Below, in pieces: positions 2,148-61,148 of a stretch of DNA of 64,000 bases; within the stretch, counting starts at the first letter, position 1, and every line of letters starts with the position of its first letter. The DNA is taken from assembly GCA_008690995.1 (NCBI GenBank), contig VRMN01000005.1, positions 310,001 through 374,000 on the forward strand. Reading direction: 5' to 3'. The DNA is from Porphyridium purpureum. Lineage: Eukaryota; Rhodophyta; Bangiophyceae; Porphyridiales; Porphyridiaceae. Both the position numbers and the translations under genes were made by a program. The notes beneath the pieces were generated by a model. That model searched no databases. It was given only the letters and a program-made list of their open reading frames with translations, and was not told the origin of the DNA.

Positions 2148-2831
2148 CCCTTAGTCCCTTCGCCTTCCCCTCCCCCTTTCTGCTCCCCCTTTCTGCTCCC
2201 CCTTTTCACTCCGCACCTAACGCCCTCCGCCCTCACCACTCACCCAGCTCACCCTACCCGACTCCCGCTTTCAGTTCCTCCACTCGCCCCATCCTTCCAA
2301 AATCGACACAACTGTACCTTCCCCCTGCCAAAGTACAGCGACCGCTCAATCACTGTACAGCCGCCGCAAAACCTGTACGTGTCCGCATCTAAAAATAGCG
2401 CGGCTTATTGCATGATGTGGCGTGATTATCGATCATGCGTGAAAACACGCGTGTGCGTGGTGAAAGCGGGGAAATTCAGAGCGCGCATGGAACGGCTTCG
2501 TGGCCGGTGTGTATGTGGATGGAGTGATTTTAGTAGAGGGAGGGCGTTGCTGATGTGCTGCGGAAGGGGGGAGCGAGAAGGCGGCAAAGTGTGTGTGTGT
2601 GTGTGTGTGTGTTGGTCTGTCACGTGGTATATTGGTGGGACAGATGGACTGTGTCGAGCGAGACGGACACGGCGTATAAAAAGGGGCGAGAGGAACCGAG
2701 AAGACTTAATCGCGCTGGGGTCGGGAGAGTAACTGCCGACGAAGGACGTAGAGGAGTTTGGAAAGCGTATCATAGCACGGCAGAGCACGGCACGGAAGAG
2801 CAGGGGAAGAGTTGCAGGGGACTACGGAAGC
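2148..2831. promoter_or_regulatory. Divergent promoter spacer with ACTGTAC motifs, TG repeat and TATA box
   Basis: This spacer separates two head-to-head genes and shows no convincing coding. ACTGTAC lies at 2311-2317 and 2352-2358; weaker CTGTAC/GTACAG cores lie at 2333 and 2373. A (TG)n tract covers about 2589-2612. TATAAAAA at 2675-2682, 157 bases before the ATG at 2832, is a likely TATA box for the rightward gene. The part next to the GLTP gene is C/T-rich on the plus strand. Confidence 0.6.
2589..2612. repeat. (TG)n microsatellite
   Basis: About 12 TG units in the divergent spacer upstream of the 2832 gene, some 65 bases before its TATA-like box. Confidence 0.95.
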
Positions 2832-3614
2832 ATGGGGATGTTTAGTTGTTTGGGCGTCGATGAGGAGGCCGAGCGGCGGGAGCGCGAGGAAATGATTGCC
2901 AAGGCGCGCGCGCAGAGCGTCGTGCTACCGGAGGAAAATGAGGCGCTCAAGGGCGCCGCTGTGGTGGGCGACGCCAAGTTTAATGCGGCGAGTCCGTGGG
3001 AAGAGGCGCGCCGCGAGCAGGCCAGGAGGGAGGCAGAGGAGGCTCGCAAGGCAAGGCAGGCAGAGGAGGCGCTGCAGAAGAGCATGAAGAGGAACGCCTC
3101 ACAAGATGCCGCGGCGGGGCCCAAGGACCGTAAGCGCCCGGCAGGCGCCGCGGGCCCAATGAAAATGCAATCCATCTTCGCCAGCTTCCGCCAGAAGTTC
3201 GAGGACAAGGCGCGCGACCCCAGTGCCGCCACCGCGGGCGAAGGCGATGCAGAGAAGCCCAAGTCTGAGTATCAGCCGCCAAAGACCATCAAGAAGGAAA
3301 ACAGTGTGGCCGCGTGGAGTCAGCGGTTTGAGAAGGGACGCGTACCCACCGCAGCCAAAGAGTACAAGAGCGAGTTTGAAAAGGAAAAGGAAACGCTGCC
3401 GATGCAAACGCTGGAAGAACGCCAGAGAGAAATCGAAAAGCGCGAGGCAGAAAAGCTCATGACAGACGAGTTCAAGGTACAAGTCGGGCTGGGCAAGGCC
3501 AATTACCGTGCGGGCTCGCAGCCCAGGGGCGCTAAGGTTCGCCGCCTGCAGCACGACCTAGCGGGCTCGACATACCACTTTGCTGGTGTTCAAAAGAATG
3601 CAGATTTTGAGTAA
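2832..3614 (+). CDS. Unrecognised charged, probably coiled-coil protein with possible N-terminal acylation site
   Basis: 260 residues from ATG at 2832, with a TATA-like box 157 bases upstream. I do not recognise a family. The start MGMFSCL has Gly2 followed by Cys6, which could support myristoylation plus palmitoylation, although residue 6 is not the preferred Ser. Residues 55-85 are an Arg/Glu/Ala-rich helix (EEARREQARREAEEARKA) typical of coiled coil. Two short modules, SIFASFRQKFEDK and AAWSQRFEKGRV, look like repeats of a Phe-containing helix. The C-terminus has a GLGKANYRAGSQPRG stretch. A peripheral membrane scaffold role is only a guess. It converges on the 3675 gene with a 60-base gap. 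Confidence 0.75.
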   Translation: MGMFSCLGVDEEAERREREEMIAKARAQSVVLPEENEALKGAAVVGDAKFNAASPWEEARREQARREAEEARKARQAEEALQKSMKRNASQDAAAGPKDRKRPAGAAGPMKMQSIFASFRQKFEDKARDPSAATAGEGDAEKPKSEYQPPKTIKKENSVAAWSQRFEKGRVPTAAKEYKSEFEKEKETLPMQTLEERQREIEKREAEKLMTDEFKVQVGLGKANYRAGSQPRGAKVRRLQHDLAGSTYHFAGVQKNADFE

Positions 3615-3674
3615 CAATTAACCATCATTAACAGCTCGGCATCCCATGACCGAATACAATTTATAGTACACACA

Positions 3675-5282
3675 CTATGTCAACACCCTGTCAGATTTAG
3701 TTCTCCGCAGTACAAAGTACGCGGCACCAACCACGGCCCCTAAGGGCAGAATTCGCCAAATCGTGTGGGCCGGGCTCACCAAGTCGTCAGAATAGAGTGG
3801 CCCATGCGATGCATCTAAGCACATCACCGTGAACGAAAACGGAAATTGTCGCGCCTGTGACGGAGCCGTCACACTATGCAGTGTGGGTGTCACCAAAAGC
3901 GAGGCGGCGCCGTTCAAAGTGACGCACTCGTGCGACACTGTAAATGCACGCGCGTCGCTGTGCACCGAAATGTTGCACCGCACACGTGACTCGTCACTGC
4001 TTCGGATAGAAACAGAACCTAGCTGCAGGGTCTTCATGGGAGGTAACCGAAACGACACCATGCCAGTCCCCATGCGAGAAACGGCGCCCACACGATATTT
4101 TGTATCTGCGTACTGTGCGTGCACTTGGCCGCCCAGTATGATTGTCTCCGGATTCAGCCCAGGCGCGGTGATTTTCGCGTTGGCGAATATTCCGAGCCCA
4201 GAGCTTGCGTGCGAAGTGGAAGCGCACTTTTTCTCCCAGGTACCGCTAATCGTGTCGAATGGAGGCACGGGTATGCTGAAATGAATGCGAACTTTTCCGG
4301 GTGCGTGGCATCGGTACAACACGAAGAACGCGTTGGATGGCTGTGTCTGTGTTTGCCGCAGTTGATTTGCACCGCGCGTGCCCCACAGCTGTGATCCGGA
4401 CGCGGCACTGCTAAACACTGCCACGGACGCCACCCGTTCGTCGCTTGAGACTATATTCGGTGGCAAGAACGCTTGCAACACGCCGTTCACTTGGAGCACG
4501 ATGTGGAGCTCCGTCTCTTCCACGTGATCCATTGCAACAGGTGGCACTGGCGAATCCAATGAGACGACCGTGGAACGCTCCGTGAACGAACCCATGTCGT
4601 AGGGGACGATGAGCTGGATTCTGCCATGCGCGCCCGCGCCGCACACTTTGAGCCAGCTGAAAGAGAGGCGCTCGCCGCTGGGCAGCGCCCAGTCAAACCG
4701 TATCACGTCTCCTTTGGAAGTCGTGTGAGCTGCATCTGTGCACAGCAAACGCACAGTGAAGTGGCCCGATGCCGAAGCCGCGTCGGACTCAAAGTCAATC
4801 ACGTGCGAGCGCGGCGCCGCGCCCAACCGAGAATTTCCCGCGTCAAATGAAACGCGCGGCGGCTGGAGCAGAGAAAGGTCTGGCGATGCGCCACTCGAGA
4901 ATGAGTCGCCCTGAGACTGAGCAGCGGCGTTCGGCGGCTGGAAGCGGAAGCGGAATTGGAGGTCTGACGAGAACTTGCCCTGCACAAAGCAGCGCGACTC
5001 TGCGAGCTGGTCGCTCTCCTGCTCGCCTTCCTGCTCGCCTTCGCGCGCTTGCAGCACGCCCGACCAACCGCCGATCCCAAGCGCGCCGGCGCGCACATCG
5101 CACGCGTGCCACACGCCAATGAGCCCTTCGCGCCCGCCTCGATACACGGCGAGCGCGTCATGACTTGTGCCTTCCACACCCAACGCTTCCAGCTCCAGCC
5201 CGCTCAGCAAATCTATCCGCGCGCCTTCCACCAGCACTGCCACCACAACCAATCCCACCCACGCTCTCCATCCGCCAATCAT
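3675..5282 (-). CDS. Unrecognised type I single-pass membrane protein
   Basis: 535 residues from an ATG at 5282. An upstream in-frame ATG at 5339 would add a Ser/Glu/Arg stretch encoded by the CT microsatellite. The internal start instead gives a clean signal peptide (MIGGWRAWVGLVVVAVLVEGA), so I prefer it. The body is beta-rich and Ser/Thr-rich with scattered cysteines, and the protein ends in one transmembrane helix (WRILPLGAVVGAAYFVL) with a short basic tail. The topology suggests ER lumen or cell surface. A segment with APGKVRIHFSIPVP faintly recalls PIG-X/PBN1-like proteins of GPI synthesis, but the diagnostic motifs are missing, so no function is assigned. Confidence 0.75.
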   Translation of the reverse strand: MIGGWRAWVGLVVVAVLVEGARIDLLSGLELEALGVEGTSHDALAVYRGGREGLIGVWHACDVRAGALGIGGWSGVLQAREGEQEGEQESDQLAESRCFVQGKFSSDLQFRFRFQPPNAAAQSQGDSFSSGASPDLSLLQPPRVSFDAGNSRLGAAPRSHVIDFESDAASASGHFTVRLLCTDAAHTTSKGDVIRFDWALPSGERLSFSWLKVCGAGAHGRIQLIVPYDMGSFTERSTVVSLDSPVPPVAMDHVEETELHIVLQVNGVLQAFLPPNIVSSDERVASVAVFSSAASGSQLWGTRGANQLRQTQTQPSNAFFVLYRCHAPGKVRIHFSIPVPPFDTISGTWEKKCASTSHASSGLGIFANAKITAPGLNPETIILGGQVHAQYADTKYRVGAVSRMGTGMVSFRLPPMKTLQLGSVSIRSSDESRVRCNISVHSDARAFTVSHECVTLNGAASLLVTPTLHSVTAPSQARQFPFSFTVMCLDASHGPLYSDDLVSPAHTIWRILPLGAVVGAAYFVLRRTKSDRVLT

Positions 5283-5283
5283 C

Positions 5284-5318
<35 letters not shown>
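5284..5318. repeat. (CT)n microsatellite at gene start
   Basis: About 35 bases of almost pure CT directly upstream of the preferred start at 5282. It lies in the predicted 5' leader of the membrane-protein gene, where on the mRNA it reads as a GA repeat. Confidence 0.95.
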
Positions 5319-5708
5319 GCTCTTACTTACACACCACATTCACCTCCTGCCGTCTGACAGTCCTTGTTCCCCTCTACACGAAAACCAGTTTCGGTCTTCC
5401 GCGCACTTCACAAGCTGCCGGTTCAAAACCAAAAAAAAAAGGTTAACCGTTTCGCCATTGTCGCATTGCAATGCAATCTTGTCAGTGGTGTACACTAGCG
5501 CGTGATGCGGCGTAGAACTGTACAAACCCTAGAGTAACTCGTATCAACCCTAGCCGCAATGCGACCAGCGCGCTCGCGCGCCGCCAATTCAAGTTCCGGA
5601 GCCGCTGCGTTGTTGGCGTGCGCAAAAACAGGGTGCTGATGCGGAAGTGTCCTCCGCGGCAACGTGCTGGCGACGGTTTGAGTGCGCAAGTTGCGCGGCA
5701 TGTGATGG

Positions 5709-5737
5709 TGCTGCTGGTGCTGCTGGTGCTGCTGGTG
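5709..5737. repeat. Short tandem repeat, 9-base unit
   Basis: Three direct copies of TGCTGCTGG followed by a partial copy, in the spacer upstream of the 5875 frame. Confidence 0.9.
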
Positions 5738-5874
5738 GGGATTGGGAATCATGTGGTCGGTTGCTGACGCAGATACACACGATGGCATCCACATATGCGC
5801 AGAATCATTGTGAGCGAGAAGGAAACACATGCTGAGTCAGGAGTTACACCGGACGACGCACACGGCACAGGACC

Positions 5875-7059: not shown

Positions 7060-7283
7060 CCATTTAGCAACTGCAGAAAGTGCGAGAGATCGCAGTTTAT
7101 ATATTTATGCGCGAGAGTAAGCGAGAATAAAACACAGGCGGTGCAGCCGCGGCGGCAGCACTTGGAATCAAAGCTGTGCGAAACTGCTGGACACGCCAAG
7201 AACGCAAATTCGCAAATCGATGGGGGACAAGAAAAGCCGAAACCCCGCCGGATCCGTCATCTGACCTGCCTGTCTCATGTTGC

Positions 7284-10200
7284 TCAAGTCCCTCCGTAAA
7301 AGCTTACAATCGAATCTCCAAACCCGGCCGCAAGCATGCTTTTGCCAGGGTTGTACGCCAGCGAGGTGACAGGCCCAATTCGCGTGCTCAAGAAACCCTC
7401 ATGAAACTTGATCTCTTTACGCACATCGCCAGTGCTCGACAAAAACTTGATGCTGCGATTGGCCGACCCCGTGATGAGTGGCGAATGGTCGACGGGCCGC
7501 ACAACCATAGAGGTCAATTTACCAGGGTGCGCATTGATACTTCGAATCACGCCGCGTCCCATCATGCGGAAATCCCACACGTTCACGAGCCCGCAAAAGT
7601 CGGCCGAGTAGAGAAGCTGGCGTTCGCCAATCCTGCTCGCCCTGCTATCGTCCACACCCAGCGCCACCACCGGCACCTTGTGTGCTCTGGGAGCGACTGT
7701 GACCCTGCCATCGCCGCCCTGCGTGCGGGAGTCAAGTACGACAAGCGAGCCGTCGCTGCCGCCAACCACGTACGCGTCGCGCATATATTCATTGCGCGGA
7801 TCCCCGCCCAATACAGAAGCTACAAACGCATCCTCGGAAAGAACCGCCGACTTCCACGCACAGGTTTCCGTATGCATGTCCCATAAGCGCACTAGACTGC
7901 GTTCGCAACCACCAGTAATCATGTATTCATGCATTCCGCTCCAATGCATCGCGCATCCGTATCCAGTTTCCGTGCCCACGCTTGGCGAGCTGCTCGTAGG
8001 TATGGCAGGATTTTGACTACTACTGGTGCTATTGCTGCGGGCCCATAGTCCCAATCGGCTGGCGCTAGGTCTCAATCGATTATACGACTGCTGCACGTTC
8101 AACAGGTCAAGTTCGGCGGTACGGGACGCTGCATGGAAAGCAGACAGAAAGAACACGCGCTCGCTGACCTGATCTTTACGCCAGAGAGCGACCTGTCCAT
8201 CGGCCGAGCTGCACGCATAGACCGGTTCCTCGCAGGGCGCTCCCGTAACCGATAGGCTCGTCACTCCGTACCGCAGAGAGTCTTTGAGCCGCGGGACACC
8301 AAGAATGTCTTTTTTAGACCACTTTTCAATATCAAAGACCATGACCGTGCCTGTTGATGTTCCCATTGCAAGCAATGGATGGTGCTCAGCAAATGCCATC
8401 GACCAGATTCCGCCTTGCATTGTCTCAAAAGACGCAACTTCGTCCATTTTGGCTATATGATGCTGATGCTCACCACCACCCATCGAACCAACCGCCAATC
8501 CTGCTGCTCCTGAAATGGGCATCATGCCACCAAATGAGCCAGTTGTCGTCGACGACAACACTGCTTCTACGGGCGGGCTCTCAGGGACACTGAGAGTCGT
8601 GCTACTACTCCATACTGGCGATGTCATTGACATGCTGCCATGATTTCCATGAGCGAGGTGGTGCTGGGCAAACACTGAGGCCTCATACATCCCCATGCCT
8701 CCGGTGCTGCTCGATCGATCGTCCATGTCCATCTCGATCGAGAGAATTTCTCGACAGCTCCATTCGTAAAGCGATGGGATCTGTGCAAGGGCGCGTTGCA
8801 ACTCAGCACGCGTAGAAACGTCGAATCCCCACTGGTCTACAAAAGAGCGGGCCCCTGGTCCTTTCACTCCGCCACCCTGCCCGTGCATGTGGCCCGCAGC
8901 ACTGCTTCCGCCCAGATCACCACCTATACCATGAATGCTGTTCTGGGGTCGGTTTGGATTGAACAATCGTTGAAACAGGCTACCAACCGCCTCGAAGGAC
9001 AAAACACGAGGAAGCGAGTCATGGCCATGATGAACTGAATCCTCATCCTTGAGCCGGTCGGCAGCACTCTGTGCACCGATGCGTCCGCCGGTGGCCACTT
9101 TGCCATGTGGCTGTAGTCCGGGTGGCGCATTGCTAGCGTTGTTACAGGATCGAAGGAAGAGCCGGCGCGCGTTAGAGTCCTTGGGGAGCAACGATTCAAC
9201 GAGGGATACGCACTCGTAGCCTACAAAAGCAATCACTGGGTGTGCGTCGCTGCTAACGACATTGATGATTGACCATAGGCGCATCATTATCAGCCGATCG
9301 AGACCTAGGTCTGATGAGGCATTGCCGGACATCATTCCCGTGGATGCCGCGAGGCCGGCTTCACGTGTATCCATGTCGATGCCGTCAGGGTACTGTTCCC
9401 GAACGCCGCGGCTTGCGGTAACTACGCGCGCGTCCAGGAGAGCAGCCATTTCCGCAGCACGAGACTCTATTATCCGGCTCGAAATGAGCGCCACTTCTCT
9501 CCGGCAAAGCGGTGAAGCCTCATCATCGCAAATCGTCGTGGCAAAGTGGTCGAGCATTTGCAAACAGAGGTTTGCAAATTCTTGGATTCGCGGGTCAGGC
9601 AACGCACCCAGCTTTCGCATCAAGTCATCAGCCACTTCATCCCCATCACTGTCAAGCACATTTTGGAGTCCACTGTCATTATCGAAATCCAGCAGCTGCT
9701 GCTGACCATCATGATCCCGCCCAGAATCTTGGATCCCCTTAGATACGCTGTAGCCGCCATCTTCAGGCTGCAGAAACTCGTCGTCCGCGCGTGACTGGGA
9801 AGAAGAAGCGAGAGCGGCAGCAAACTGATGCGCTTGCAAGGACAAATAACGATAAGTTCCAATAAATGCGTTACCCAAGAGTATAGAAGCAGCTGCGCGA
9901 ACCTCCGGGAACGGATCGTTGCGCTGCAAGTCAAAAACGGTCTGCAGTAGCTCTGGGTTACGGTACACGTCGTCAACATACTCGCTTGAATATGCAATAA
10001 ACTGCGATAGGCAGAAGAGGCACCATCTACGCACGAGAGGGTGCGGATCTGACAGGCGCCGTAGACAGCCCGTTACGAATTGTGGGTCCGATGCGCACTT
10101 TTCTGGTGCATCGGAGGCCACAGTTGACAGCACAAATGCCGCCATGGCAACATGCACCGCGGATGAGGACGATGAAGAGTATCCCTTTCCAAGAAACTCA

Positions 10201-12320: not shown

Positions 12321-12637
12321 AGCTCCCCCTCGTGCTCCCGAAACAGTTCACACCACCCCTCCTCTCATCTGCTCCTTCCGTTTCCTTCCTGCTTATTCGT
12401 CCTGCTCAATTTTCACTGTACATACTGTACCCTGTCAGCGCCATTTTCCCCCCTGGTTTAGTGTACCTCTTCACTGTACTTATTTCACCTGGTTCAACTG
12501 TACCATGATATGCTTACGGAGTACAGTGAAAGATTCATTTGCTTAATGAGTTGGAAGGGAGGACAGATTAAAGCAGCAGACGGCTGCGGGGGAGAGAATA
12601 GGTCTTGGTGCTTCCGGGTTCAAAGCAGTGTCACAAC
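12321..12637. promoter_or_regulatory. Compact bidirectional promoter with five ACTGTAC elements
   Basis: This 317-base spacer separates the Raptor and LYRM1-like start codons. ACTGTAC occurs at 12415-12421, 12424-12430, 12473-12479 and 12497-12503, and its complement GTACAGT at 12521-12527. That is five copies in 113 bases, centred between the two genes. The Raptor side is C/T-rich on the plus strand. No TATA box is obvious. Confidence 0.65.
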
Positions 12638-13021
12638 ATGGCGTCAGCAGTCGTAGTGAAGGGCTCTGCGCACACGCGCGCCATTTCCTTGTTCAGGAAG
12701 ATCATGCGGGCGGCGCACCGCTGGGAGGCGCCCGACGAGCGTGAGTATATTCGCAAGGAGGCATACACCTTATTCCGCCAGAACAGCGGCCTGACGGACG
12801 CTGAGCAAATCGAGGCAAAGCTGCACGAGGCGACCACGCGCCTGGAACTGGGACTGTACTACGGTATTCCGTATCCGCGCCCGACATACACGTTCCCGGG
12901 CGCCACGGGCCAGGAGACCGAGGGCGTCCAGCCCGACTACATGCATTCAAAGCGCTCAATGCGCGAGCCGCAGGGCGCTTTGCCGTCTCCTCTCAAGCAA
13001 AAGCTTCCCAAGTACGACTAG
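12638..13021 (+). CDS. LYRM1: LYR-motif protein, LYRM1-like
   Basis: 127 residues from ATG at 12638; the frame is open slightly further upstream but only from a TTG. The N-terminal LYR variant ISLFRKIMRAA is followed by EYIRKEAYTLFRQN, an LTDAEQIEAKL helix and the block RLELGLYYGIPYPRP. That block is the hallmark of LYRM1 proteins (animals have IEIGLHYKIPYPRP). LYR proteins are small mitochondrial helical proteins that bind acyl-ACP and act as assembly factors or subunits of respiratory or Fe-S machinery; the role of LYRM1 is not well defined. The C-terminal 35 residues are Lys/Pro-rich. Confidence 0.85.
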   Translation: MASAVVVKGSAHTRAISLFRKIMRAAHRWEAPDEREYIRKEAYTLFRQNSGLTDAEQIEAKLHEATTRLELGLYYGIPYPRPTYTFPGATGQETEGVQPDYMHSKRSMREPQGALPSPLKQKLPKYD

Positions 13022-18786: not shown

Positions 18787-19065
18787 CGCGCGTCAATCCT
18801 AAGCCAACAGCTCACGGCTCCCGCACCCATCATCCTCGCCGCGCGTGCCGCTTCTCTTCGCCCAACCCACACAGCTCAAGCTCGCGCTCTTTGAAAACCG
18901 CGCAGCTAGGGTATCTCAACCCTAATTTACCCTAGCAGTTTCTACTGTACCTCCAAAAACGAAACCAACTGAACACCCTCGCGGCGGGCGTCGAACGGCA
19001 GCGAGCAGCCGAGCGGATGAACGGCACAAAGGTGCAAGGACGGAAAAGAGAAAGCTGTGGCAATC
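18787..19065. promoter_or_regulatory. Short bidirectional promoter with ACTGTAC and telo-box-like motifs
   Basis: 279 bases between two head-to-head genes. CTAGGGT at 18906, AACCCTAA at 18918-18925 and ACCCTAG at 18929-18935 form a cluster of telomere-repeat-like (telo-box) sequences. ACTGTAC follows at 18944-18950. No TATA box was seen. Confidence 0.55.
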
Positions 19066-30217: not shown

Positions 30218-30819
30218 GAGCGAACGTGCGCTCAGCCGATCGATACCGCTCACGGGGCGCACGGCGCCAGAACCCGATCGGCCCTGACCGGCGTGTCAAC
30301 CGAGAGGTTTAGATCAGTAGTCGGCGCGTGGAGTGTTAAATTTCAATATGTCGAGCAAGACAAGGATTAGGTAGGACGACGGACTGTACCAATGTGGTAC
30401 CCCGGACGGATTGGCTGTCTTCTCTGGTGCCAGGGTAACCGTTTCCACACTCGCAGAAACTGGGGGTTGCTAGGGAGTGGCCGTGTCGCACATGAATGTC
30501 TTGCTTTATGCGCACGCAGCGAGCGCCACGGAGCGCTCTGTACTAAATAAGACGAGAAAAGTGATTTGCGCCAACCGAGATGTATGAAGGATCGGGTGCG
30601 AGTTCAGCGGCTCCTGTTCGGCGCGTCCGGACAGCCTACAGGCAGAGGCGTTGTGTGGGTTTGCCTCCGCTGCTATTCTTTTCTGTTCAGTGTCTTGCTT
30701 GCTACCAACTGAGTCGATGCTCCGACATCGTGTGATCGAGCTGTACGCCTTTGGTGTCGTGTAATCTGCGTGTTCGCTCTGTTACGCAGCACACATGCTC
30801 ATCTCGGCACCACCCATAC
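30218..30819. promoter_or_regulatory. Spacer upstream of the PTPMT1-like gene with an ACTGTAC motif
   Basis: 602 bases between two minus-strand genes. One ACTGTAC at 30383-30389 lies 166 bases upstream of the phosphatase start. No coding sequence or RNA gene was seen. Confidence 0.45.
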
Positions 30820-31476: not shown

Positions 31477-32293
31477 CCCCCTTCCCACCCCACACCTTTC
31501 ACGACCCGCGCCACGTGCCCCACCCTACCCCACACGACCCAACTCACCACCACAATTACTTTACCTGCCCTCTTCCCTCGACCTTCAACCTTTTCTCTCC
31601 TCTCGCCCCTGACTCTTACTCTCTCTCTCTCTGTCCTTATCCCACTGCCACACACAAAAAACACCCAGTCCCATAATGGATCAATACGCCGCACCGCCTT
31701 CCAAAATACCCTTCCTTCCTTATCACCATAATCATCATCCGTCCATCCATCATTGCACCATTGTATGAATCCATCATATGAAGACGCGCCTTCTCCTCTC
31801 ATGAACGCGCCACACCGCACCGCACACAAAAATAGAACCCATACACACACACACACACACACAGAATCCCATCCACAAAAGCAACGGCGTTCTGATACAT
31901 TCACTTGTTGATGTGGTGTTCACCCGTCTGCACATATGAGTCTGTGATCGGTTCACCCATCATCATCATCATCATCATCTTGGTGGTTGTTATTCATGGT
32001 CGTCGTAAGCAGCAGCAGTGGTGGCAGGAGGAAAGGTTACGCGCGTGGCGATGCGCGGTTCGTGCGGTGGGTGGGAGGCGCGCACCGCACGGTACAGTGC
32101 GGCAGTACGCATGCTCGCTGGGACGACAGATGGATGCACGCACGGACGGACATGAGCAGCAGGCGGTACAGTGAGTCAGTGCGGTACAGTGCTGGTTTGT
32201 GGGTTGAACTGTGGGAGCGAGGAGGGCGTGAGGGGGGTGGAAGAGGCCGGCGCAAGGGACTGAGCGCGGCGGCGGCGAAAGCGCGGGGGAGAG
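31477..32293. promoter_or_regulatory. Divergent spacer with microsatellites and three GTACAGT elements
   Basis: 817 bases between the PRA1 and uS13 genes. It holds a CT tract (31619-31632), a CA tract (31843-31863) and an ATC repeat (about 31958-31979). GTACAGT occurs at 32092-32098, 32166-32172 and 32184-32190, all within 205 bases of the uS13 start. Long open frames here are byproducts of the simple repeats. Confidence 0.55.
31843..31863. repeat. (CA)n microsatellite
   Basis: About ten CA units in the PRA1/uS13 spacer, flanked by a CT tract and an ATC tract. Confidence 0.95.
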
Positions 32294-35153: not shown

Positions 35154-36356
35154 ACAATATTGCGCCTTTCTCACTCTTCTAGTCTCCCGTCTCTCCTCTC
35201 TCTCAACAGCCACCGCAGCTACAGACCCAAGCTGGACTTGACACTGCAACCGTGCCCCCTGTCCTTAGTAGCTTCCAAACGCTGCGTTGGGCGAGGCACA
35301 CAAACTCCGCTCTCATGCACTCACTTCAGCCTCAACAAGAATACTCCCACCCTATATCAACTTTCCACTGTAGCCTCACCTCCTTCGACTTGCTCCCATT
35401 TCTCCTGGAGAAAGAAAATGAGATCGAATTTTGTTTGTTACGTGGAGGAGGTTTCAGGTGGTGAGTCAACTCATACTCTGCGCAGCGTGCAAGGTGGCGT
35501 AGCATCGGTTCTCCAACGACATCGGCTGCGTTCATTGCCGAATGCGTGAGTGGGAGCATCTCTCGTATTGCAGGATCTAGGGCGAGCGGCTCTCAGAGCA
35601 GAGACCCAGAGCGAGCGGCTCTTACAGCAGAGACCCAGAGCGAGCGGCTCTCAGAGCAGAGACCCAGAGCGAGCGGCTCTTACAGCAGAGACCCCCCGAG
35701 GAGAGATCCACACCAGAGACCCACAGCGCATGCTGTGAGACTTATTTTGCATGTAGAAGTGATGCACCCGGTTGATTGATTTCTTTCTCGGAAAGCCAAG
35801 TCTTTTCTCGAAAGCACATTTCTTTCTCGTGTGCGTTCTCAGCGTAACTCAGCTGGCCGTAGTATTGATATCCGAATCTGTTCTTTCGTCCCGCCGACTG
35901 CTATTCTGTTGAAACATGGCGGCATGCCTTCCGTTGACCGCTGGTCCGGTTTCTGAGAGAGAGAAAAGTCTCTCGTCGTCTGCGCACGCAGCGGACACGG
36001 GTGAAGCATTTGTGTAGCCGCGACAGACTCACGTTGCGTCAACGCGTCTTCCGCGCCGAAGGCTTAGTGGAACACTGGGACAAACTAAAATTCCCTAATT
36101 TTTTCGTTTACAAATTTAGATCACACGAAAAAAAAGACTGTACGGGTCCGCCGAGCGGACGCACCTAGCTCTCTGTGTCCTATGGTTCGCAGCTCGCAAA
36201 ATATGGCGAGTTGCAGCAACGAGGAGATGCGCTCCCTTCACCTAATTCATAAGGGATCACTTGCATCTCTCACTCTCCAGTGAGCGGATCATCAATGGAC
36301 TACTATTCACATTCGGGTCGCACGCAAAGTACTCCCCATTCCTACGCCACAGACAC
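35154..36356. other. Long spacer holding a 29-bp minisatellite
   Basis: 1.2 kb between the glutaredoxin start and the 3' end of the ClpB-like gene, with no credible gene. It contains the tandem repeat at 35584-35697 and one ACTGTAC at 36137-36143. Confidence 0.5.
35584..35697. repeat. Minisatellite: four 29-bp units in alternating two-unit pattern
   Basis: The unit begins GAGCGGCTCT and ends ACCCAGAGC. Copies start at 35584, 35613, 35642 and 35671. Copies 1 and 3 carry CAGAG at unit positions 11-15, while copies 2 and 4 carry TACAG, so the true period is a 58-bp dimer repeated twice. The last copy is slightly shortened. Confidence 0.93.
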
Positions 36357-39223: not shown

Positions 39224-39734
39224 CGCACCGACACCGACACCGCCGCCGCCGTCCTGTTCCGTACCTCAATCTCCCAACCAATCCGGCCTCAACCACGTTC
39301 AGATCCAATTCCCTCTCAATCCCGCACCACCATCTCTGTCCCTCCACATACGCTCAGACCCTCCAGCAAGAAGCGCATCGCAATCTCACACAGATTTCCC
39401 CCCGTTTCGAGTTCAGTCCTGCATCTCCCCCGACTGCCCCTCTTTTCTATAAACCATCCCCAAACCACTAAGGAAAAATGGGCAATAAGTGAAGACAACT
39501 GGATAGATAATTAATTAACTTCCTTTTTAACTCTGAGCCACTACTGAGAACTGTACTTCCGTTGTGCATTTGACTCGAATCATAAAACGGTGTCATTTGA
39601 TCGCACCGCAGGGGGGAGAAGCAGGTACACTAGAAAATGGAGTGTGGGTCCGACGGTGAGTTGACGGAGATGGGGAAACACTAGAGACAATGGGAGAGAG
39701 AGACAAACCGAAGAATACAGTTAGCATTGACGGT
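39224..39734. promoter_or_regulatory. Divergent spacer between two plastid-function genes, with ACTGTAC
   Basis: 511 bases between the psb27 and pheS starts. ACTGTAC lies at 39550-39556. A TTTCTATAAACC stretch at 39448-39459 could serve as a weak TATA-like element. An upstream in-frame ATG for pheS at 39690 lies inside this interval. Confidence 0.5.
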
Positions 39735-41519: not shown

Positions 41520-42058
41520 TCTGGAAGTGTCTCATCAGCGTGCGTGCGAGAACCCACCGAACGAGAAACAACGCCGAACAATCGAGCCAAGCTATGAACC
41601 AACAGGGCGCCCGACTGGGGCAGACCAGTGCGTAGACGCGCGGCCAATCTGCGCCATAACATCCAGCACACCGCGCCGCACCGTTCGTTGCTCCCAGGTC
41701 GCGAGCACCGTATCAGCACGCCTCCGCGCTCCTCTTCCAAGCCCTGCGCCAGAAATCCTCACCCGCGCACAAGTGGAGCGCTCCGCACTGTACTTTGATG
41801 TACTCACTGTACTTTCCTTTGCCCTTTTGACGGTGGAGCTTTAAGATATAAGGTACAGTTCTGACTCAGAGCGTGGGAGATTGGGTGTTCTGTTGTGGTG
41901 TTCGCAAGGGGTTGAGTGGCTGGTGGTTTTGGCCGAGTGAGATGAGCTGCGGACATTGTTCATGAGTGGTGGTTGGGGTGAGGAGGGCGGCAAAAGGGAG
42001 GGAGGTTGGTGGGAATCAGTCAACGTCGACTCATATCTTTGGTGTGTGAGAGACGATC
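41520..42058. promoter_or_regulatory. Divergent promoter spacer with three ACTGTAC/GTACAGT elements
   Basis: 539 bases between the small membrane protein and PGP. ACTGTAC lies at 41787-41793 and 41806-41812, and GTACAGT at 41853-41859. The three lie within 73 bases, at roughly the middle of the spacer. A TTAAGATATAAGG stretch at 41841-41853 is TATA-like. Confidence 0.55.
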
Positions 42059-48351: not shown

Positions 48352-49069
48352 ATCTAGCTCGCGCGCCTGCGAGCACCTGCCAAACCGCGCACGCGCGCGT
48401 GTGTGTACGCGAATGCGTTTTGCGTGGATGTGTCTGCGTGTCGTGTCGGCGTCTCGACGAGCTCCGTCAACTTGCGGCCAACCCCGCCGCTGCGCGCGGG
48501 AGTACGTCCCGACCGCTTCTCTCAGCGGTGCGACAGCTGTCCTTCCGGGCTGCGTTGCTTGTCACCACCACACTCGATGCCGAGCCACATCCATCCTCCT
48601 ACTCGCGCCTCTCCGTGCGCATCCAAACCTGCCTCAACCCGCATACGCGATTCCCAATCCAGCCATCAAAACAATAAAAAAAGCCCCGTCTTGTAGAAAA
48701 CCAAAACCAAAACCAAAGCCAAAACCAAAACCAAAGCAACAAAAAAATGGAAAACCCTCGCATGTGACGGTTCAGTTTGGGCAGATTCAGGAACGCGCAT
48801 AGTAGGACGGCGCGCTTTTGTGATTTCCGCGACCAGCTCGTTGAGCACACGCCGCAAGCTGTACCCCTGGGGTATGTACAGTGGATGAGGTGGCGGGTGT
48901 ACAGTGCGACTGTGACCCGTGTGTGACAAGAACGCGTGCTGCTCAGAAGCAGGTGGTGGTCGCTTTGGTGTGCGCGGGTTTGGCACAGCAAAGGTATGCT
49001 GGCTTGTGTGTTCGGGGGGTTGGCACGCACGTCTGTGTGTGTCGGTGTGGATGGGCGATACGAAATTTA
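48352..49069. promoter_or_regulatory. Spacer with AAAACC tract and GTACAGT elements
   Basis: 718 bases upstream of the DUF218-like gene and downstream of the cullin gene. An AAAACC-type tandem tract lies at 48697-48737. GTACAGT occurs at 48876-48882 and 48899-48905, with a CTGTAC core at 48859. The interval also contains the 3' UTR of CUL4 at its right end. Confidence 0.5.
48697..48737. repeat. AAAACC tandem tract
   Basis: About seven degenerate AAAACC units (two read AAAGCC or AAAGC). A related AAAAACC tract lies upstream of enolase. Confidence 0.9.
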
Positions 49070-52147: not shown

Positions 52148-53269
52148 TTAGAAGCACTTTCGGTGCACGATGGACGGGCCCATTTCGTCGTATTCGTTCT
52201 TCGACACCCACATCTGCTGGAATGTCGACAGCGACGCCAGAATCGATCCACCGATCCACACCGAGAACTGGCGCTCCGGCGGCGCAATCACCTTGATCTT
52301 CATCGCCGGCGGCGCAAGCGACTCCAGCTCCTTCTGCACGCGCGCAGAGATGCCCGCAAACATCGTCGACCCACCGGACATCACGCAGTTGTTGTAAAGG
52401 TCCTTACGGATATCAATGTCGCACTTCATGATCGACCCGAACGCAGTCTCGTGCATGCCCTTGTACTCAAGGCCAAGCATGTCTGGCTTGAACAGCGCCT
52501 CCGGGCACTGGAAGCGCTCCTGCGCCACCGTGATCACCTGCCCGTCGGGCAGTTCGTACTCCTTCTCGAGCGACGAGTTCGCCGCCGCACCGGCAAGCTC
52601 CTTCTCGTAGTCATCAGCGACGTACGACAGCTGCTGCTTGATGTCACGCACAATCTCCAGCTCGGCAGACGTCGTGAACGAGTACCCACGCTGCTGCAGC
52701 AGCTTTGCCATCCACTCCGTCAGGTCGCGCCCGGCCAAGTTGATGCGCAGCACGGCGTGCGGCAGCGAGTACCCTTCGTAGATCGGCACGGTGTGCGTCA
52801 CACCGTCGCCCGAGTCAATCACAATACCGGACGTGCGCCCAGACGCGTACAGCGACAGCACCGCCTGGATCGCCACGTAGAACGCGGGGATGTCAAACGT
52901 CTCGAACAGGATCTGCGTCATGCGCTCGCGGTTCGCCTTGGGGTTCAGCGGCGCCTCGGTCAGCAGGCACGGGTGCTCCACCGGGTCCACGCGCAGCTCC
53001 GAGTAGAACGCGTGGTGCCAGATCTTCTCCATGTCGTCCCAGTTCGTCACGATCCCGTGCTCCAGCGGGTACTTGATGATCAGCACACCGCGGCGCGCCA
53101 TCGCGGCATCGCCTACGTAGTCGTCCTTCTGTCCGGCGCCCACCATGATACCCTTCTGCTTGGGCACGCCGATCACGGCCGGGAACACCGACTTGGGCGA
53201 GTCCTCACCGGCAATGCCGCACTTGCAGCGGCCGGATCCATTATCCAAAACAACGGCTGGCTTCGACAT
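52148..53269 (-). CDS. ACT: Actin, copy A
   Basis: 373 residues from ATG at 53269; the frame continues 15 codons upstream only from a TTG. All actin nucleotide loops are present: [34 protein letters not shown], and the C-terminal [17 protein letters not shown] ending [10 protein letters not shown]. The His of the [10 protein letters not shown] loop, usually methylated, is kept. The start [11 protein letters not shown] lacks the acidic N-terminal cluster of most actins, and RCKCGIAG replaces the usual MCKAGFAG. The predicted protein is identical to copy B, with eight synonymous differences counted by eye. Role: cytoskeletal filament protein. No TATA box is evident upstream. Confidence 0.97.
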
Positions 53270-53366
53270 GTTGCCTACACTCCTCGAGCTGCGATCTGCT
53301 TCCCTCCTTCCCAACTTTCACCCCCACCCCTTCCTTCTTCCCAAGCCTTCCACCTCGTCCTTCTCC
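52148..53366 (-). repeat. Left arm of inverted actin duplication
   Basis: This covers the actin A coding region plus about 97 bases of 5' leader. It matches 57129-58347 in reverse orientation at about 99% identity. Similarity stops at the stop codon on one side and inside the leader on the other. Confidence 0.93.
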
Positions 53367-55263: not shown

Positions 55264-55405
55264 CTTGACCAAAGCTTAGGCTTTCACGAACCGCTTCCCT
55301 CTTCCTTTCCCCTCGTCACCTTACCTTCCTCTCACTCTTCTCTCTCCCGACTTCTTCCGCACTCTCCAAACTTGCCCCCTCTCTACAGCGCCCAAACCAC
55401 CTCAG

Positions 55406-55412
55406 TTTTATA
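55406..55412 (-). promoter_or_regulatory. TATA box of the cofilin gene
   Basis: TATAAAA on the minus strand, 149 bases before the cofilin ATG, nearly the same distance as the TATA box of actin B from its ATG (145 bases). Confidence 0.65.
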
Positions 55413-56817
55413 TCATCTAATCGCTTGCTAACGGACTTACAGCCGCGCATTGGTCCTCATGCCTATCAAAACACCCCGCGATTCGCGGTCCCTCTGTGGC
55501 CGCCCTTCTAAATCGTGCCGCTTTGTTAGAAAGCTCCACTTTTTTTTTTTGCAGACAGTCGTGCGCAACAACAGGAACACACGACACAGGCGTGCGGCGC
55601 GTCCCAGCGTGGTGCGTGCCGGTGCTGTTGCGCTGGTGCAGTGTCGGCAAAAATCTGCGCGTGAAACCCTAATTGCCCGTTTGAGTTCGATCGATTCATG
55701 GATTGATGGAGCAAGCGTGGGTGTGGGGGGATGGATAAAGTCATTCGGCATTGAGATGTAGTGCCGCACCGCAACAGATGGCTCTCCATCTCGTGATGTG
55801 CGGCACGGAGTCGGACAATCTCGCACCGCGGCCATCATGCCTCCCGCAATCGTCGCGCATCTCCGTCCGACCATAGACCGTGTTTCATTTCGTGACAGAG
55901 TGGAGATCGTGTGCCCGGTTGTAGATAGATAGCATGCTTGCATGCGACGCCCCACGCCATCCTGATTCGCACGCTCTGCGAGGAGTCTTCTTGCGCTCTG
56001 CAGGTGAAACAGGATGTGACAAGGGACACACGGCGGCGATCTGCAGGCAGTGCATGATACTTGGGGTTTGTGGTGAGGCCGGCGCGTGTTTGGCGTACAT
56101 TGGCCAAAGGAGGGGACTCCCGGACCACATAACTGTCGCACCAGATTGATCGTGAAGCGGGGGCGATCCGATCCTGGGTCAGCGAACGCAGACGTCGCGG
56201 GGGCGCACAAGCCGGTACCTGCGGGATCCAAAGGTGGCACGAGAGGCCTGTGTACTTGTTGCTCGTAGCCAGGGTGGTGGGTGTGAGACAGACTCCATGG
56301 ATGCCGGGTCTGTGCAGGCCGGCAGCGAACCGTCGCGGATCTGCACGACGGTCGACAGTCGACCGTGCGCGCATGCGGACGCAAGGTCAAACCAGTCAGC
56401 GCCACCAGCGCCTTGTGGACAGACAGCTCATGCAGACTTTGTCCAGCACCGGACAAGATCAGAGTGTAGTCGCTGGGAGGAAGGAGCTCGTTGCGCGGCC
56501 GCCGTCCCGCCAACCTGTTGTCCCACGCGGCCAAGCACACGCGCTGAGGCGCCTCGTCACATCACGGCTTGTTGTCAATCATGATGAAGATAGTCCTGCC
56601 ACGAATTCGAGTAACGGCAGTCGCGCAGGACATTTGCCTGCTAAGCGCAGCGCGCCACCCCGCAACCGTCCGCTCTGAGCAGCTCGGCGCGGCATCTTCT
56701 AGTAAAAGCACTGTATTCAATCACTATCTCCGCACACACGTACCGCTCCCAACACTGCGAAATCGGCTGCAACGGAAGTCCTACGCAAACACGCTCGTTT
56801 CAATTACACTTGCACAA

Positions 56818-56843
56818 CACACACACACACACACACACACACA
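56818..56843. repeat. (CA)n microsatellite
   Basis: About 13 CA units in the cofilin/actin B spacer, some 240 bases upstream of the actin B TATA box. Confidence 0.95.
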
Positions 56844-57080
56844 TACCCCGGAGCGCGTGCCTAATTTTGGAGCCGCGAACAAACCGGGGCGAGAATCACA
56901 GTCAGCGCGCGTCGTTGCTTTTCCCTTTTGTTTTATTTTAGGTTTTGGTGGTGGTTGTTGCAGACAGTGCCTCAACCTTTTGCAGACAGCACTGTCTGCA
57001 CCTTTTGTGACTGCGGATATGCATGAGGGTACCGTTTTGCTTGCAAGGTTTGGAACGCGTTGCGTGCGATCGACGTCTGG

Positions 57081-57088
57081 TATATAAA
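57081..57088 (+). promoter_or_regulatory. TATA box of actin B
   Basis: TATATAAA located 145 bases before the actin B ATG and just outside the duplicated tract, so actin A does not share it. Confidence 0.7.
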
Positions 57089-57128
57089 CGTGGGGCGAGC
57101 TGGGCTGAAGGTTGATGCAAGGCGTACC

Positions 57129-58347
57129 GGAGAAGGAAGAGGTGGACGGCTTGGGAAGAAGGAAGGGGTGGGGGTGAAAGTTGGGAAGGAGGGAAGCAGA
57201 TCGCAGCTCGAGGAGTGTAGGCAACATGTCGAAGCCAGCCGTTGTTTTGGATAATGGATCCGGCCGCTGCAAGTGCGGCATTGCCGGCGAGGACTCGCCC
57301 AAGTCGGTGTTCCCGGCCGTGATCGGCGTGCCCAAGCAGAAGGGTATCATGGTGGGCGCCGGGCAGAAGGACGACTACGTAGGCGATGCCGCCATGGCGC
57401 GCCGCGGTGTGCTGATCATCAAGTACCCGCTGGAGCACGGGATCGTGACGAACTGGGACGACATGGAGAAGATCTGGCACCACGCGTTCTACTCGGAGCT
57501 GCGCGTGGACCCGGTGGAGCACCCGTGCCTGCTGACCGAGGCGCCGCTGAACCCCAAGGCGAACCGCGAGCGCATGACGCAGATCCTGTTCGAGACGTTT
57601 GACATCCCCGCGTTCTACGTGGCGATCCAGGCGGTGCTGTCGCTGTACGCGTCTGGGCGCACGTCCGGTATTGTGATTGACTCGGGCGACGGTGTGACGC
57701 ACACCGTGCCGATCTACGAAGGGTACTCGCTGCCGCACGCCGTGCTGCGCATCAACTTGGCCGGGCGCGACCTGACGGAGTGGATGGCGAAGCTGCTGCA
57801 GCAGCGTGGGTACTCGTTCACGACGTCTGCCGAGCTGGAGATTGTGCGTGACATCAAGCAGCAGCTGTCGTACGTTGCTGATGACTACGAGAAGGAGCTT
57901 GCCGGTGCGGCGGCCAACTCGTCGCTCGAGAAGGAGTACGAACTGCCCGACGGGCAGGTGATCACGGTGGCGCAGGAGCGCTTCCAGTGCCCGGAGGCGC
58001 TGTTCAAGCCGGACATGCTTGGCCTTGAGTACAAGGGCATGCACGAGACTGCGTTCGGGTCGATCATGAAGTGCGACATTGATATCCGTAAGGACCTTTA
58101 CAACAACTGCGTGATGTCCGGTGGGTCGACGATGTTTGCGGGCATCTCTGCGCGCGTGCAGAAGGAGCTGGAGTCGCTTGCGCCGCCGGCGATGAAGATC
58201 AAGGTGATTGCGCCGCCGGAGCGCCAGTTCTCGGTGTGGATCGGTGGATCGATTCTCGCGTCGCTGTCGACATTCCAGCAGATGTGGGTGTCGAAGAACG
58301 AATACGACGAAATGGGCCCGTCCATCGTGCACCGAAAGTGCTTCTAA
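57129..58347 (+). repeat. Right arm of inverted actin duplication
   Basis: Leader plus coding region of actin B, matching 52148-53366 inverted across a spacer of about 3.8 kb that holds the cofilin gene. Two differences were seen in the leader and eight in the coding region. Confidence 0.93.
57226..58347 (+). CDS. ACT: Actin, copy B
   Basis: 373 residues from ATG at 57226, protein identical to copy A. The same unusual features are present: no acidic N-terminal cluster, [11 protein letters not shown] in place of the usual GRPRHQGVMVG, and RCKCGIAG. Differences from copy A are synonymous third-position changes only. Upstream, this copy has a clear TATA box that copy A lacks, and downstream the sequences diverge immediately after the stop. 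The two genes therefore give the same protein under different control regions. Its 3' end faces enolase. Confidence 0.97.
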
Positions 58348-58812
58348 GTTCTGACCTGCTTACACTTTTTTTTTTTTTTCGTTGGTGGAAAGTTGAGCGC
58401 TGAAAATGGATGACAAATAAAGCAGCCGTGAAATCAGATTGACGAAATTGGTGAAGCCCTTGACACTGTGAAAACGTGAGAACGTGCACTTCTTGCTCGC
58501 ATAGACTTGCTGATGTGATGTTACGAAGAAGCTGGGGTTTCCGGCATGCCGAAGTATTATCAGATCCATGCCAAGTGTACACTGGGAAGCGTCTCATGCG
58601 TGCTTAGGTTTGTTCATCGAAGGGTACGGCCGCGCATGGAACGGACGGATGGAAAGCGAACGATTTCTTTGACACATTGGGGATCGAAAGGAAGAAGCAG
58701 TCGCTTTGATATTGCAATACGAAAGTGCCTGGTCCGCTGGACCAGATGAGCGGATATGGCGGGTGGGACAGACAAACGCAATGAGGAAAATAATTCCACT
58801 GAACCGGCCACT
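58348..58812. other. Convergent spacer between actin B and enolase
   Basis: 465 bases. A T run at 58367-58379 and AATAAA at 58416-58421 follow the actin B stop and look like its 3' processing region. No gene is seen. Confidence 0.5.
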
Positions 58813-60180
58813 TCAAAGCCCCATCGAGCGGCCGCGCGCAACTGGGGCCATCAGCCACGGATCTCTGAAGTACTCGCCTGCGTACTGCGCACGTTCGGCG
58901 AGGTCTTCTTCGATGCGCAATATTTGGTTGTACTTTGCCACGCGCTCCGAGCGGCACGGCGCACCGGCCTTTATCTGGCCCGCACCAAGTCCAACGGCAA
59001 GATCTGCAATGAATGTGTCCTCCGTCTCTCCAGATCTGTGCGAGACCATGACGCCCCATCCGGCTGAGCGAGCCATACTGAACGCCTTGATCGACTCGGT
59101 GACGCTTCCAATCTGGTTCACCTTGAGCAGCAGCCCATTGCACGCATCCTTTTCCTCAGCCTGCTCGATTCTTTCAGGGTTAGTGACGAGCAGATCGTCT
59201 CCGACGACCTGAAGGACATCGCCTAATTCTTCGGTCATCGCCGACCATGCCTGCCAGTCATCCTGATCAAACGGATCCTCAATGGACACAATTTCGATTT
59301 GCGGCTCATCCCCCTCATCTGGCGCCAGCCACGTTTTGTACAGCTTGAGCAGTTCGGCCGATGTGAGCTTCATGGAGCCGTCGCTCTTGTCGTTCTTGAA
59401 GTCCAAGTCGTACAGACCCGTGGCCTTGTCGTAAAACTCCGAGGCGGCAATATCCATGCCGAGCGAAATCTGTTCTGCATATCCACACTGGCGAATCGCG
59501 GTCTTCAGCAGAGTGAGCGCCTCGTGGTTGTCCTGAATGTTTGGCGCAAATCCACCCTCGTCCCCAACTGACGCCGCGTCCTGTCCGTACTTTTTCTGGA
59601 TGATTTTTTTGAGCGTGTGGTAAACCTCGCTGCACATCATCATGGCTTCCGTAAATGTGGTTGCGCGGGTGGGAATTAGCATAAACTCCTGCATCGCAAG
59701 CTTATTCCCAGCGTGGCTGCCTCCATTCAACACATTCAAGCAGGGCACGGGCAAAATGAGGTTGGGGTTACCTGCGAGGTTGTTGATGTGTTTGTACAGA
59801 GGCAGCCCCTTCTTTGCCGCACCCGCGCGACACACAGCCATGGAGATACCCAAAATGGCATTGGCGCCGTATTTTGACTTGTTGGGAGTCCCGTCCGCGT
59901 CGATCAGCGCCTGATCGACGCCCTCCTGATCTGTGGGATCCATACCGAGGATCTCCTCCTTGAGAAGCTCCACGTTATCGACGGCGCCCTGCACCGCCTT
60001 GCCCATGTACCGATCGCCGCCGTCGCGCAGCTCGTGCGCCTCGTACACGCCTGTGGAAGCGCCGGACGGCACCACCGCGCGAAACACGCCGTCCTCCGTG
60101 ACCACCTCGACCTCCACCGTCGGGTTTCCGCGGCTATCAAACACTTGCCGCGCCTTCACATCGGAGATACGCGATGCCAT
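58813..60180 (-). CDS. ENO: Enolase, cytosolic
   Basis: 455 residues from ATG at 60180. The protein starts directly with [25 protein letters not shown], with no transit peptide, so it is cytosolic. The enzyme converts 2-phosphoglycerate to phosphoenolpyruvate in glycolysis. Conserved blocks: [42 protein letters not shown], metal ligands in [11 protein letters not shown] and GDDLLVTNP, and the signature [13 protein letters not shown] with the catalytic Lys. A small insert ([12 protein letters not shown]) precedes the SIEDP strand, longer than in animals and plants. Confidence 0.98.
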
Positions 60181-61148
60181 TCTCCCCGTTCCCCCCACCA
60201 CCCTTCCACCTCTTGTCTACCGCCCGCGCACGCCACCCCCGCTCTATCCTCTCTTGCCCCCCTCACACACGCCGCTTCTCTCACAGACGCACTAGTCCCT
60301 CTTGCAGCTGCAGAACATCGCAAACACGCGCAACCGAATCTGCTCGCCACTCCATCGTCCTTCGTTTCAGTATGATTCTCCTATCACCCCTTTCGATTTT
60401 GCAACCAACACCAAAAACCGAAAACCAAAAACCAAAAACCAAAAACCAGAAAACACCTATCAAACCGGTCACACTGCCTTCGTTAGTCTTTGAGTACCAA
60501 CTGACACGTATATATTAAAACACCCACATTCCACTATTAAACTCCGCCCCCCAAAACCCAACAACTACGACACAGCTTCTACTCCTACTACAACTACTCC
60601 TCCTAGTAGTCGTAGTACAACTCTCCTCCCCTGTGCAACGCGCGAACTGGAATCGCGTTGAGGTTTCACAGTACCCCCCTTCCCCCAAATCAGTTAAATT
60701 TGTAGGTTCTCTATGAGACTGAACCGCATGCCTGAAGGACAAAACGGAAATCGCGAGGAATGTATATTTTAGAAGGACAATGGAGTACAGTGGACATCAA
60801 CGCACTGTACTGGATGCAATTTTCGGCGATTCGTTTCAAACGTGCGAAAATCTATCAGTTGCAGAGGCGCGGACGGTATTGCGCGGCGTGGCAAGTGAAG
60901 CCGGACTTTCCGCGGGAGGAGGGACGGCTGGATGGACTGTGGGGAGGGGGTTGGACGCGTGAGAATATCGGTCGCTCGGCTGCGTGGCTGGGGTATTCGA
61001 ATCAACACGGCGCGCAGAGCTTGTAACTCGCTCTGACGCCCGCGGGTTTTGGAGGCGGAGCGGTTGGTTTAATGCGGCCGCGGCGTTTACCCGTCACAGG
61101 AAAACGAAGGGCGGGCAGCGGTTGCAAGCTGCGGCGCGCGGTGTCATC
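60181..61148. promoter_or_regulatory. Divergent spacer with AAAAACC tract and ACTGTAC pair
   Basis: 968 bases between enolase and the glycosyltransferase. It has an AAAAACC tandem tract at 60411-60448 on the enolase side, a TATATA element at 60510-60515, GTACAGT at 60785-60791 and ACTGTAC at 60804-60810. The last two form an inverted pair 12 bases apart. Confidence 0.55.
60411..60448. repeat. AAAAACC tandem tract
   Basis: Four to five units of about seven bases, 230 bases upstream of the enolase start. On the enolase sense strand it reads GGTTTTT. Confidence 0.9.

Follow-up and report, generated by a model that had tools for sequence, protein, structure and literature searches.

ACTGTAC, an asymmetric seven-base word recurring upstream of genes in the red alga Porphyridium purpureum, as a candidate factor-binding site

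The 64-kb stretch of the Porphyridium purpureum genome analysed here, called the window (contig 13, positions 310001-374000, of an assembly of 22.16 Mb in 46 contigs), carries a recurrent seven-base word, ACTGTAC on one strand and GTACAGT on the other, whose standing as a real element upstream of genes is confirmed. The site is asymmetric, with the form ACTG(T>A)AC, and the GTAC palindrome within it is incidental. Judged from its occurrence, it is likely to be the binding site of a sequence-specific DNA-binding protein acting upstream of the core promoter, and this factor is probably a general transcription factor, an upstream factor at many unrelated genes fitting best and a regulon being the main rival. 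Upstream statistics were drawn from 264 kb, comprising the window and 200 kb of contig 1 (C1:200001-400000), a held-out sample outside the DNA in which the word had first been noticed, with genome-wide pattern counts as support; 30 loci picked by the motif were left out, since the motif had chosen them. For gene calling, ATG-to-stop frames were assessed by a codon score that had been trained on those longer than 600 amino acids; this gave 23 genes in the window and 76 in contig 1.

The window contains 23 exact matches to ACTGTAC on both strands, as compared to a mean of 2.93 (standard deviation 1.87, largest value 8) in 100 dinucleotide shuffles. A preliminary description of this DNA had named the same 23 positions, every one of which matches exactly, and had put the chance expectation at about eight, which is too high. 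The window is typical of the genome, which holds 3181 + 3139 = 6320 copies in 22.16 Mb, or 18 per 64 kb, versus 1548 + 1540 = 3088 for the reversed word and 1639 + 1701 = 3340 for the three ACTHTAC words together. Non-coding DNA of contig 1 has 61 copies versus 5.3 expected from dinucleotides, and no more than four words, all of them CA and GA repeats, stand above ACTGTAC there. When same-composition controls, which the preliminary description had proposed, were counted on the 264 kb (630 words, each word and its reverse complement counted once), ACTGTAC came first upstream of genes in both samples, with 18 copies versus a mean of 0.74 in the window and 43 versus 2.03 in contig 1. At least one copy lies within 500 bp upstream of 33 of the 99 genes (10/23 in the window, 23/76 in contig 1), as compared to 2.7, and at most 9, in shuffles; 16 of the 33 have a single copy only, and 17 have two or more, for which the shuffled expectation is 0.08. 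In being short and specific, and more concentrated upstream of genes than every matched control, ACTGTAC looks as a transcription-factor site should, and its presence at many unrelated genes, housekeeping ones included (33/99, with mixed Pfam content), is what is expected of a general regulatory factor.

Relative to the ATG, the density of ACTGTAC is 2.85 per kb at -200 to -101 and 2.28 per kb at -300 to -201, falling to 0.32 per kb (3 copies in 9469 bp) in the last 100 bp, and the first 600 bp of the 99 coding frames hold two copies altogether. Orientation is balanced, with 45 sense and 50 antisense copies upstream, copies in head-to-head spacers counting for both flanking genes. Strict gene calls in the window leave five head-to-head spacers, four of them with ACTGTAC; with weak coding segments added the tally becomes seven of eight, and accepting a frame at 5875, which has no coding signal by codon score, gives the eight of nine of the preliminary description. 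This proportion is thus roughly reproduced in the window but is lower in the held-out DNA, where a copy occurs in 8 of the 20 spacers between head-to-head genes, 14 of the 34 between tandem genes and 5 of the 20 between tail-to-tail genes. The exception among head-to-head spacers of the window is 55264-57225, between the cofilin and actin genes, in which no ACTGTAC was found.

A logo of 84 non-coding copies has C or A before the word in 68 of the 84 and a base other than G after it in 83, with little information in the flanks beyond one base on the 5' side and three bases on the 3' side; therefore, the copies do not form one repeat family. Among the 21 one-base variants ACTGAAC stands out with 36 non-coding and 13 coding copies, followed by GCTGTAC (32 non-coding, 31 coding) and AGTGTAC (22 and 13). 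ACTGAAC is found 21 times in the 9152 bp lying within 100 bp of a perfect site versus 15 times in the 92282 bp elsewhere; one tandem array supplies nine of these 36 copies, seven of them near perfect sites, and its removal leaves 14 near and 13 elsewhere. Genes with ACTGTAC also have ACTGAAC in 13 of 33 cases versus 2 of 66 for genes without it (P = 6e-6), two of the 13 sharing the tandem array. Genome-wide, ACTGAAC followed by ACTGTAC within 30 bp occurs 117 times versus 11 for the reversed pattern, and the two ACTGSAC words, with C or G in the same place, pair with ACTGTAC 46 times together versus 14 for the reversed pattern. The preference for ACTGAAC and these pairing counts thus define the site as ACTG(T>A)AC. 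Only one of the 84 non-coding sites is a ACTGTACAGT palindrome. An extended ACTGTACACTACT form, noticed several times among the direct pairs listed, is locally rare: at 5 of 111 sites ACTAC follows within 9 bases on the 3' side. At L038:3977-4071 (contig 1), the spacer between head-to-head DnaJ and BAG-domain genes holds nine ACTGAAC copies with a period of exactly 11 bp, adjoining a sequence that by eye resembles heat-shock elements.

Copies of ACTGTAC are also close to each other far beyond expectation. Direct pairs with a gap of 0-30 bp number 442 + 448 = 890 genome-wide, as compared to 4 + 6 = 10 for the reversed-word control, and within the same 30 bp there are 303 convergent pairs (control 1) and 245 divergent pairs (control 4); independence across the genome predicts 28, 14 and about 14, respectively, an excess of roughly 18- to 32-fold. 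The shortest gaps depend on orientation. The first 100 of the 230 direct pairs with gaps 0-4 are distributed as 1, 1, 46, 23 and 29 over gaps 0, 1, 2, 3 and 4; all 27 convergent pairs with gaps 0-5 fall on gap 4 (four pairs) and gap 5 (23 pairs), leaving gaps 0-3 empty where the mean rate at gaps 6-30 predicts 44 pairs; and among the 50 divergent pairs listed of the 245, gap 0 is absent, while gaps 1, 2 and 3 hold one, two and nine. The minimum gaps are sharp, as would be expected of a single protein molecule occupying 9-10 bp at each site: if it extended about 2 bp past the word on the 3' side and 0-1 bp past it on the 5' side, just the observed limits would follow. Convergent gap 0, which puts a G at +7, could be forbidden by the base preference next to the word, but neither gap 3 nor direct gap 0 could.

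Several points weigh against the interpretation as a general upstream binding site, or against the firmness of the figures behind it. The pair counts take in repeated LTR-like (long terminal repeat) copies and short tandem arrays, so that the events are not independent; concentration in promoters alone lifts pair counts above genome-wide independence and explains part of the excess; and the gap lists are partial for direct (100 of 230) and divergent (50 of 245) pairs. The calling of genes by open reading frames and codon score misses intron-containing and short genes, and distances were measured to predicted ATGs, purely from sequence. The word had been described as confined to promoter spacers, and while it is strongly concentrated there, strict confinement fails: 11 of the 72 copies in contig 1 lie in its 121 kb of coding frames, tail-to-tail spacers hold 10 of the 61 non-coding copies of the held-out 200 kb, and one window copy, at 36137, lies upstream of no called gene within 2 kb. 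Furthermore, 66 of the 99 genes have no copy within 500 bp, including both actin genes, the cofilin gene, an S10-domain gene, a carbonic anhydrase and a formate/nitrite transporter. With two of three genes lacking it, ACTGTAC is therefore not needed for transcription in general.

The place of the site relative to transcription starts is suggested by one gene. A published forward primer for the actin 5' leader (PMC10866757) matches exactly at 57117, 109 bp before the actin open reading frame, which speaks for P. purpureum as the source. For the reverse primer from the same paper there is no exact match; 14 bases of this 20-mer recur with a single mismatch at both 57209-57222 and 53273-53286, and judged by eye the full primer can be aligned at the former place with just that mismatch, as would be seen in another strain or allele. 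A TATATAAA box, seen by eye some 30 bp ahead of the forward leader primer, points to leaders around 100 bp long, which would put most ACTGTAC copies upstream of transcription starts. The two actin genes of the window, at 52148-53269 and 57226-58347, are arranged head to head at a distance of about 4 kb, and the cofilin gene lies between them; their 373-amino-acid products look identical, the 14 bases just before their ATGs are identical, and the region has no ACTGTAC.

One protein molecule would bind each copy asymmetrically, contacting the 7-bp core with about 2 bp on the 3' side and 0-1 bp on the 5' side, and clusters of copies would raise occupancy. Once bound, the factor may promote initiation, either by making chromatin accessible or by bringing in co-activators, much as yeast general regulatory factors or clustered activators do. 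An asymmetric footprint of 9-10 bp suits a three-finger C2H2 protein, and our guess is that the factor could be a C2H2 zinc-finger protein. In the transcription factor census (PMC4827209, Table 3), P. purpureum is listed with 199 factors, of which 60 are C2H2 (30% versus 2-8% in six other algae), 23 two-repeat MYB, 16 MYB-SHAQKYF and 21 bZIP, and with no SBP, AP2/ERF or WRKY members. A bolder picture, put forward tentatively, is that the putative ACTGWAC factor is a red-algal general regulatory factor drawn from the expanded C2H2 set, defining a main promoter class (about one third of genes) of a mesophilic red alga, with its site taken up by retrotransposon LTRs.

The main alternative, which we hold to be somewhat unlikely, is a regulon-specific response element, whose factor would run one programme, for example one tied to stress, light, nutrients or the cell cycle; as the binding site itself is common to this reading and to that of a general factor, their odds overlap. 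Copies at Hsp90 and at the DnaJ/BAG spacer, with its nine ACTGAAC beside the sequence that by eye is like a heat-shock element, speak in its favour, as does the fact that some genes belonging to strongly expressed kinds have none within 500 bp. However, more than 6000 copies are many for a single regulon, and by eye no clear common programme unites the 33 genes, which span Raptor, Mre11, RFC, eRF1, chorismate synthase, DapB, YCF48, PheRS (phenylalanyl-tRNA synthetase) and adenylosuccinate lyase. The preliminary description had left the choice between a core-promoter element and a factor-binding site. The predicted factor-binding site is favoured, and an element read by the general transcription machinery appears improbable: abundance and nearness to gene starts would suit it, but instead of a fixed distance and orientation there is a broad distribution of distances to the ATG over several hundred bp, the even split of 45 sense and 50 antisense, multiple copies per promoter and presence at only one third of genes, and TATA-like words are independent of ACTGTAC, being found in 6 of 33 genes with and 10 of 66 genes without it (P = 0.77). 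A signal acting at the RNA level in 5' leaders is scarcely credible, as nearness to the ATG is set against nearly equal sense and antisense counts and the paucity of copies in the last 100 bp.

Debris of spacer-preferring repeats, microsatellites or mobile elements, without regulatory meaning, could account for some copies, given that some lie in LTR-like repeats and some in short tandem arrays, but it makes a quite improbable explanation of the whole: flanks poor in information do not fit one repeat family, the 19 and 25 matches of the LTR-like repeats are few beside 6320 copies, and the position, the minimum gaps and the specific tolerance of T or A are unexpected of debris. A copper-response or SBP-type (CRR1/SPL) site is very improbable. 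ACTGTAC does contain GTAC, the core bound by SBP domains (PMC3617394, PMC4158090), but this core is not invariant, as the second-best variant ACTGAAC lacks it, and palindromes amount to the single case among 84 sites. The tabulated census gives no SBP gene for P. purpureum versus 23 for Chlamydomonas (PMC4827209, Table 3). A comparison of the SBP profile PF03110 with this genome gave no match, the control genomes being equally without one. By the variant, the palindrome count and the census, the doubt already voiced in the preliminary description about the SBP/CRR1 connection is upheld.

The individual copies of the window are placed as follows, + and - denoting strands. The copies at 2311..2317 and 2352..2358 (both +) share the spacer between a GLTP-domain gene (921-2147, -), before whose start the first lies by 163 bp, and a + gene at 2832, and the + copy at 5517..5523 is 177 bp upstream of the - gene 3675-5339. 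The Raptor gene (7284-12320, -) is preceded by a cluster of five, at 12415..12421, 12424..12430, 12473..12479 and 12497..12503 (all +) and 12521..12527 (-), in which the first two form a direct pair with gap 2 and the last two are convergent with gap 17. The + copy at 12853..12859, probably a chance copy, had been called coding; it does lie within a + frame with a weak coding score (12602-13018), but the stricter gene caller counts it as non-coding. The + copy at 18944..18950, accompanied by ACTGAAC at 18968, occupies a 279-bp head-to-head spacer between 15973-18786 (-) and the adenylosuccinate lyase gene 19066-20727 (+), and the one at 30383..30389 (+) precedes the start of a dual-specificity phosphatase gene (29366-30217, -) by 165 bp. 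Three - copies at 32092..32098, 32166..32172 and 32184..32190 form a cluster, the first of them 615 bp before the start of a PRA1-family gene (30820-31476, -) and also before a weak + coding segment at 32279. The copy at 36137..36143 (+) comes some 210 bp after the stop codon of the - gene 36357-36980, with a weak - coding segment at 34821-35126, and no called gene within 2 kb has it upstream. The phenylalanyl-tRNA synthetase gene 39690-41030 (+) has a + copy 140 bp before it at 39550..39556, and a HAD/phosphoglycolate phosphatase-like gene (42059-43123, +) has a cluster at 41787..41793 (+, 272 bp before it), 41806..41812 (+) and 41853..41859 (-). Two clustered - copies at 48876..48882, 524 bp upstream of the - gene 46318-48351, and 48899..48905 have an ACTGAAC variant at 48770. 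The divergent pair 60785..60791 (-) and 60804..60810 (+), with gap 12 and ACTGAAC at 60718, lies in the head-to-head spacer of the enolase gene (58813-60180, -) and the gene 61149-62951 (+); these copies, the nearest to enolase, are 604 and 623 bp away from it, so it was counted among genes without a copy within 500 bp.

All 99 called genes were compared with Pfam, at an E value of 1e-3 for 40 of them (the 33 with copies and seven without) and of 1e-6 for the other 59 without copies, 11 genes that cross a 10-kb boundary entering only in part. Besides the families named above, those with copies include ELP1, Hsp90, DnaJ, BAG and fibrillin, and seven of the 33 have no Pfam match; the 66 without copies include five retrotransposon-type frames, one just below its Pfam cut-off. 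No clear shared functional theme separated the 33 from the 66 when Pfam content was judged by eye. A plastid-function theme, considered on account of fibrillin, YCF48, chorismate synthase, DapB and YbeY among genes with copies, was dropped, as bacterial- or plastid-type families occur among genes without copies too. The telobox-like word AACCCTA co-occurs weakly with the site, in 10 of 33 genes with versus 7 of 66 without ACTGTAC (P = 0.022; P = 0.044 without short spacers), and upstream of the 99 genes it also peaks at -300 to -101. The last 100 bp before the ATG of these genes are GA-rich, with 126 overlapping GAGAGA/AGAGAG hexamers in sense versus four of the CT kind, many of which a few long repeats could supply. 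A carbonic anhydrase gene (L035:5308-7215) and a formate/nitrite transporter gene (L035:8454-9440) lie head to head, neither with ACTGTAC within 500 bp upstream; genes of these two kinds, though not necessarily the L035 ones, are named among the most strongly expressed (PMC10866757).

The site also recurs in two LTR-like repeat families. Two L047 sequences, at L047:4119-4262 and L047:6829-6931, carry convergent ACTGTAC pairs (gaps 6 and 23) and have 19 and 25 matches genome-wide, the pair being listed in at least three and at least five matches of the respective families. These families look like retrotransposon LTRs because several matches of both form same-strand pairs 6.4-8.0 kb apart, as LTRs would show. 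In the L047 copy of each family, examined by eye, a TATA-like box follows the ACTGTAC pair at a distance of 57-59 bp, and in the first family the box is itself followed by a GA-rich stretch, as in host genes. A host promoter site recurring in retrotransposon-like LTRs is thus a case that ACTGTAC appears to offer.

Red-algal promoter logic seems hardly described, and one word marking about one third of sampled promoters, with spacing rules that would reveal the size and direction of the putative bound protein, is a handle for finding the factor. Transformation of P. purpureum is already possible (PMC10866757), and the word may likewise serve in designing synthetic promoters for this alga. ACTGTAC and GTACAGT as whole words retrieved no algal paper by title and abstract, and among the matches listed for Porphyridium or red-algal promoter motifs no such element is described, in agreement with the earlier statement that no red-algal element of this sequence was known; these matches mostly lack subscription papers and hence are weak evidence of absence.

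Among known systems, the SBP/SPL sites, including the CRR1 copper-response element, resemble ACTGTAC in the GTAC core, the promoter location and an algal relative in Chlamydomonas (PMC3617394), but the present site is asymmetric, does not require GTAC, ACTGAAC being its preferred variant, and belongs to an alga with no SBP gene in the census (PMC4827209). The plant two-finger C2H2 proteins of the EPF/ZPT2 type recognize (C)ACT/AGT(G) cores, of which (C)ACT is close to the (C/A)ACT with which the logo starts, and their sites too have spacing rules (PMC3268024). However, an EPF protein contacts a pair of (C)ACT cores with a preferred distance of 10 bases (PMC3268024), whereas here a single CACT-GTAC unit occurs with broad spacing and sharp minimum gaps, a second core being absent from the flanks of the 84-site logo and 16 of 33 genes having one copy only. 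The plant telobox AACCCTA has a similar position profile in this genome, with a peak at -300 to -101 and in both orientations; as a different word it serves for comparison only. The sites of yeast general regulatory factors (Reb1, Abf1, Rap1 and Tbf1) and of animal M1BP and DREF are short, strict words found at many unrelated genes, free in orientation and near gene starts. From these ACTGTAC differs in its frequent tight clusters and in being known here from sequence alone, and it is like them in being short, strict, free in orientation and near the starts of unrelated genes, with a weak co-occurrence of the telobox-like word.

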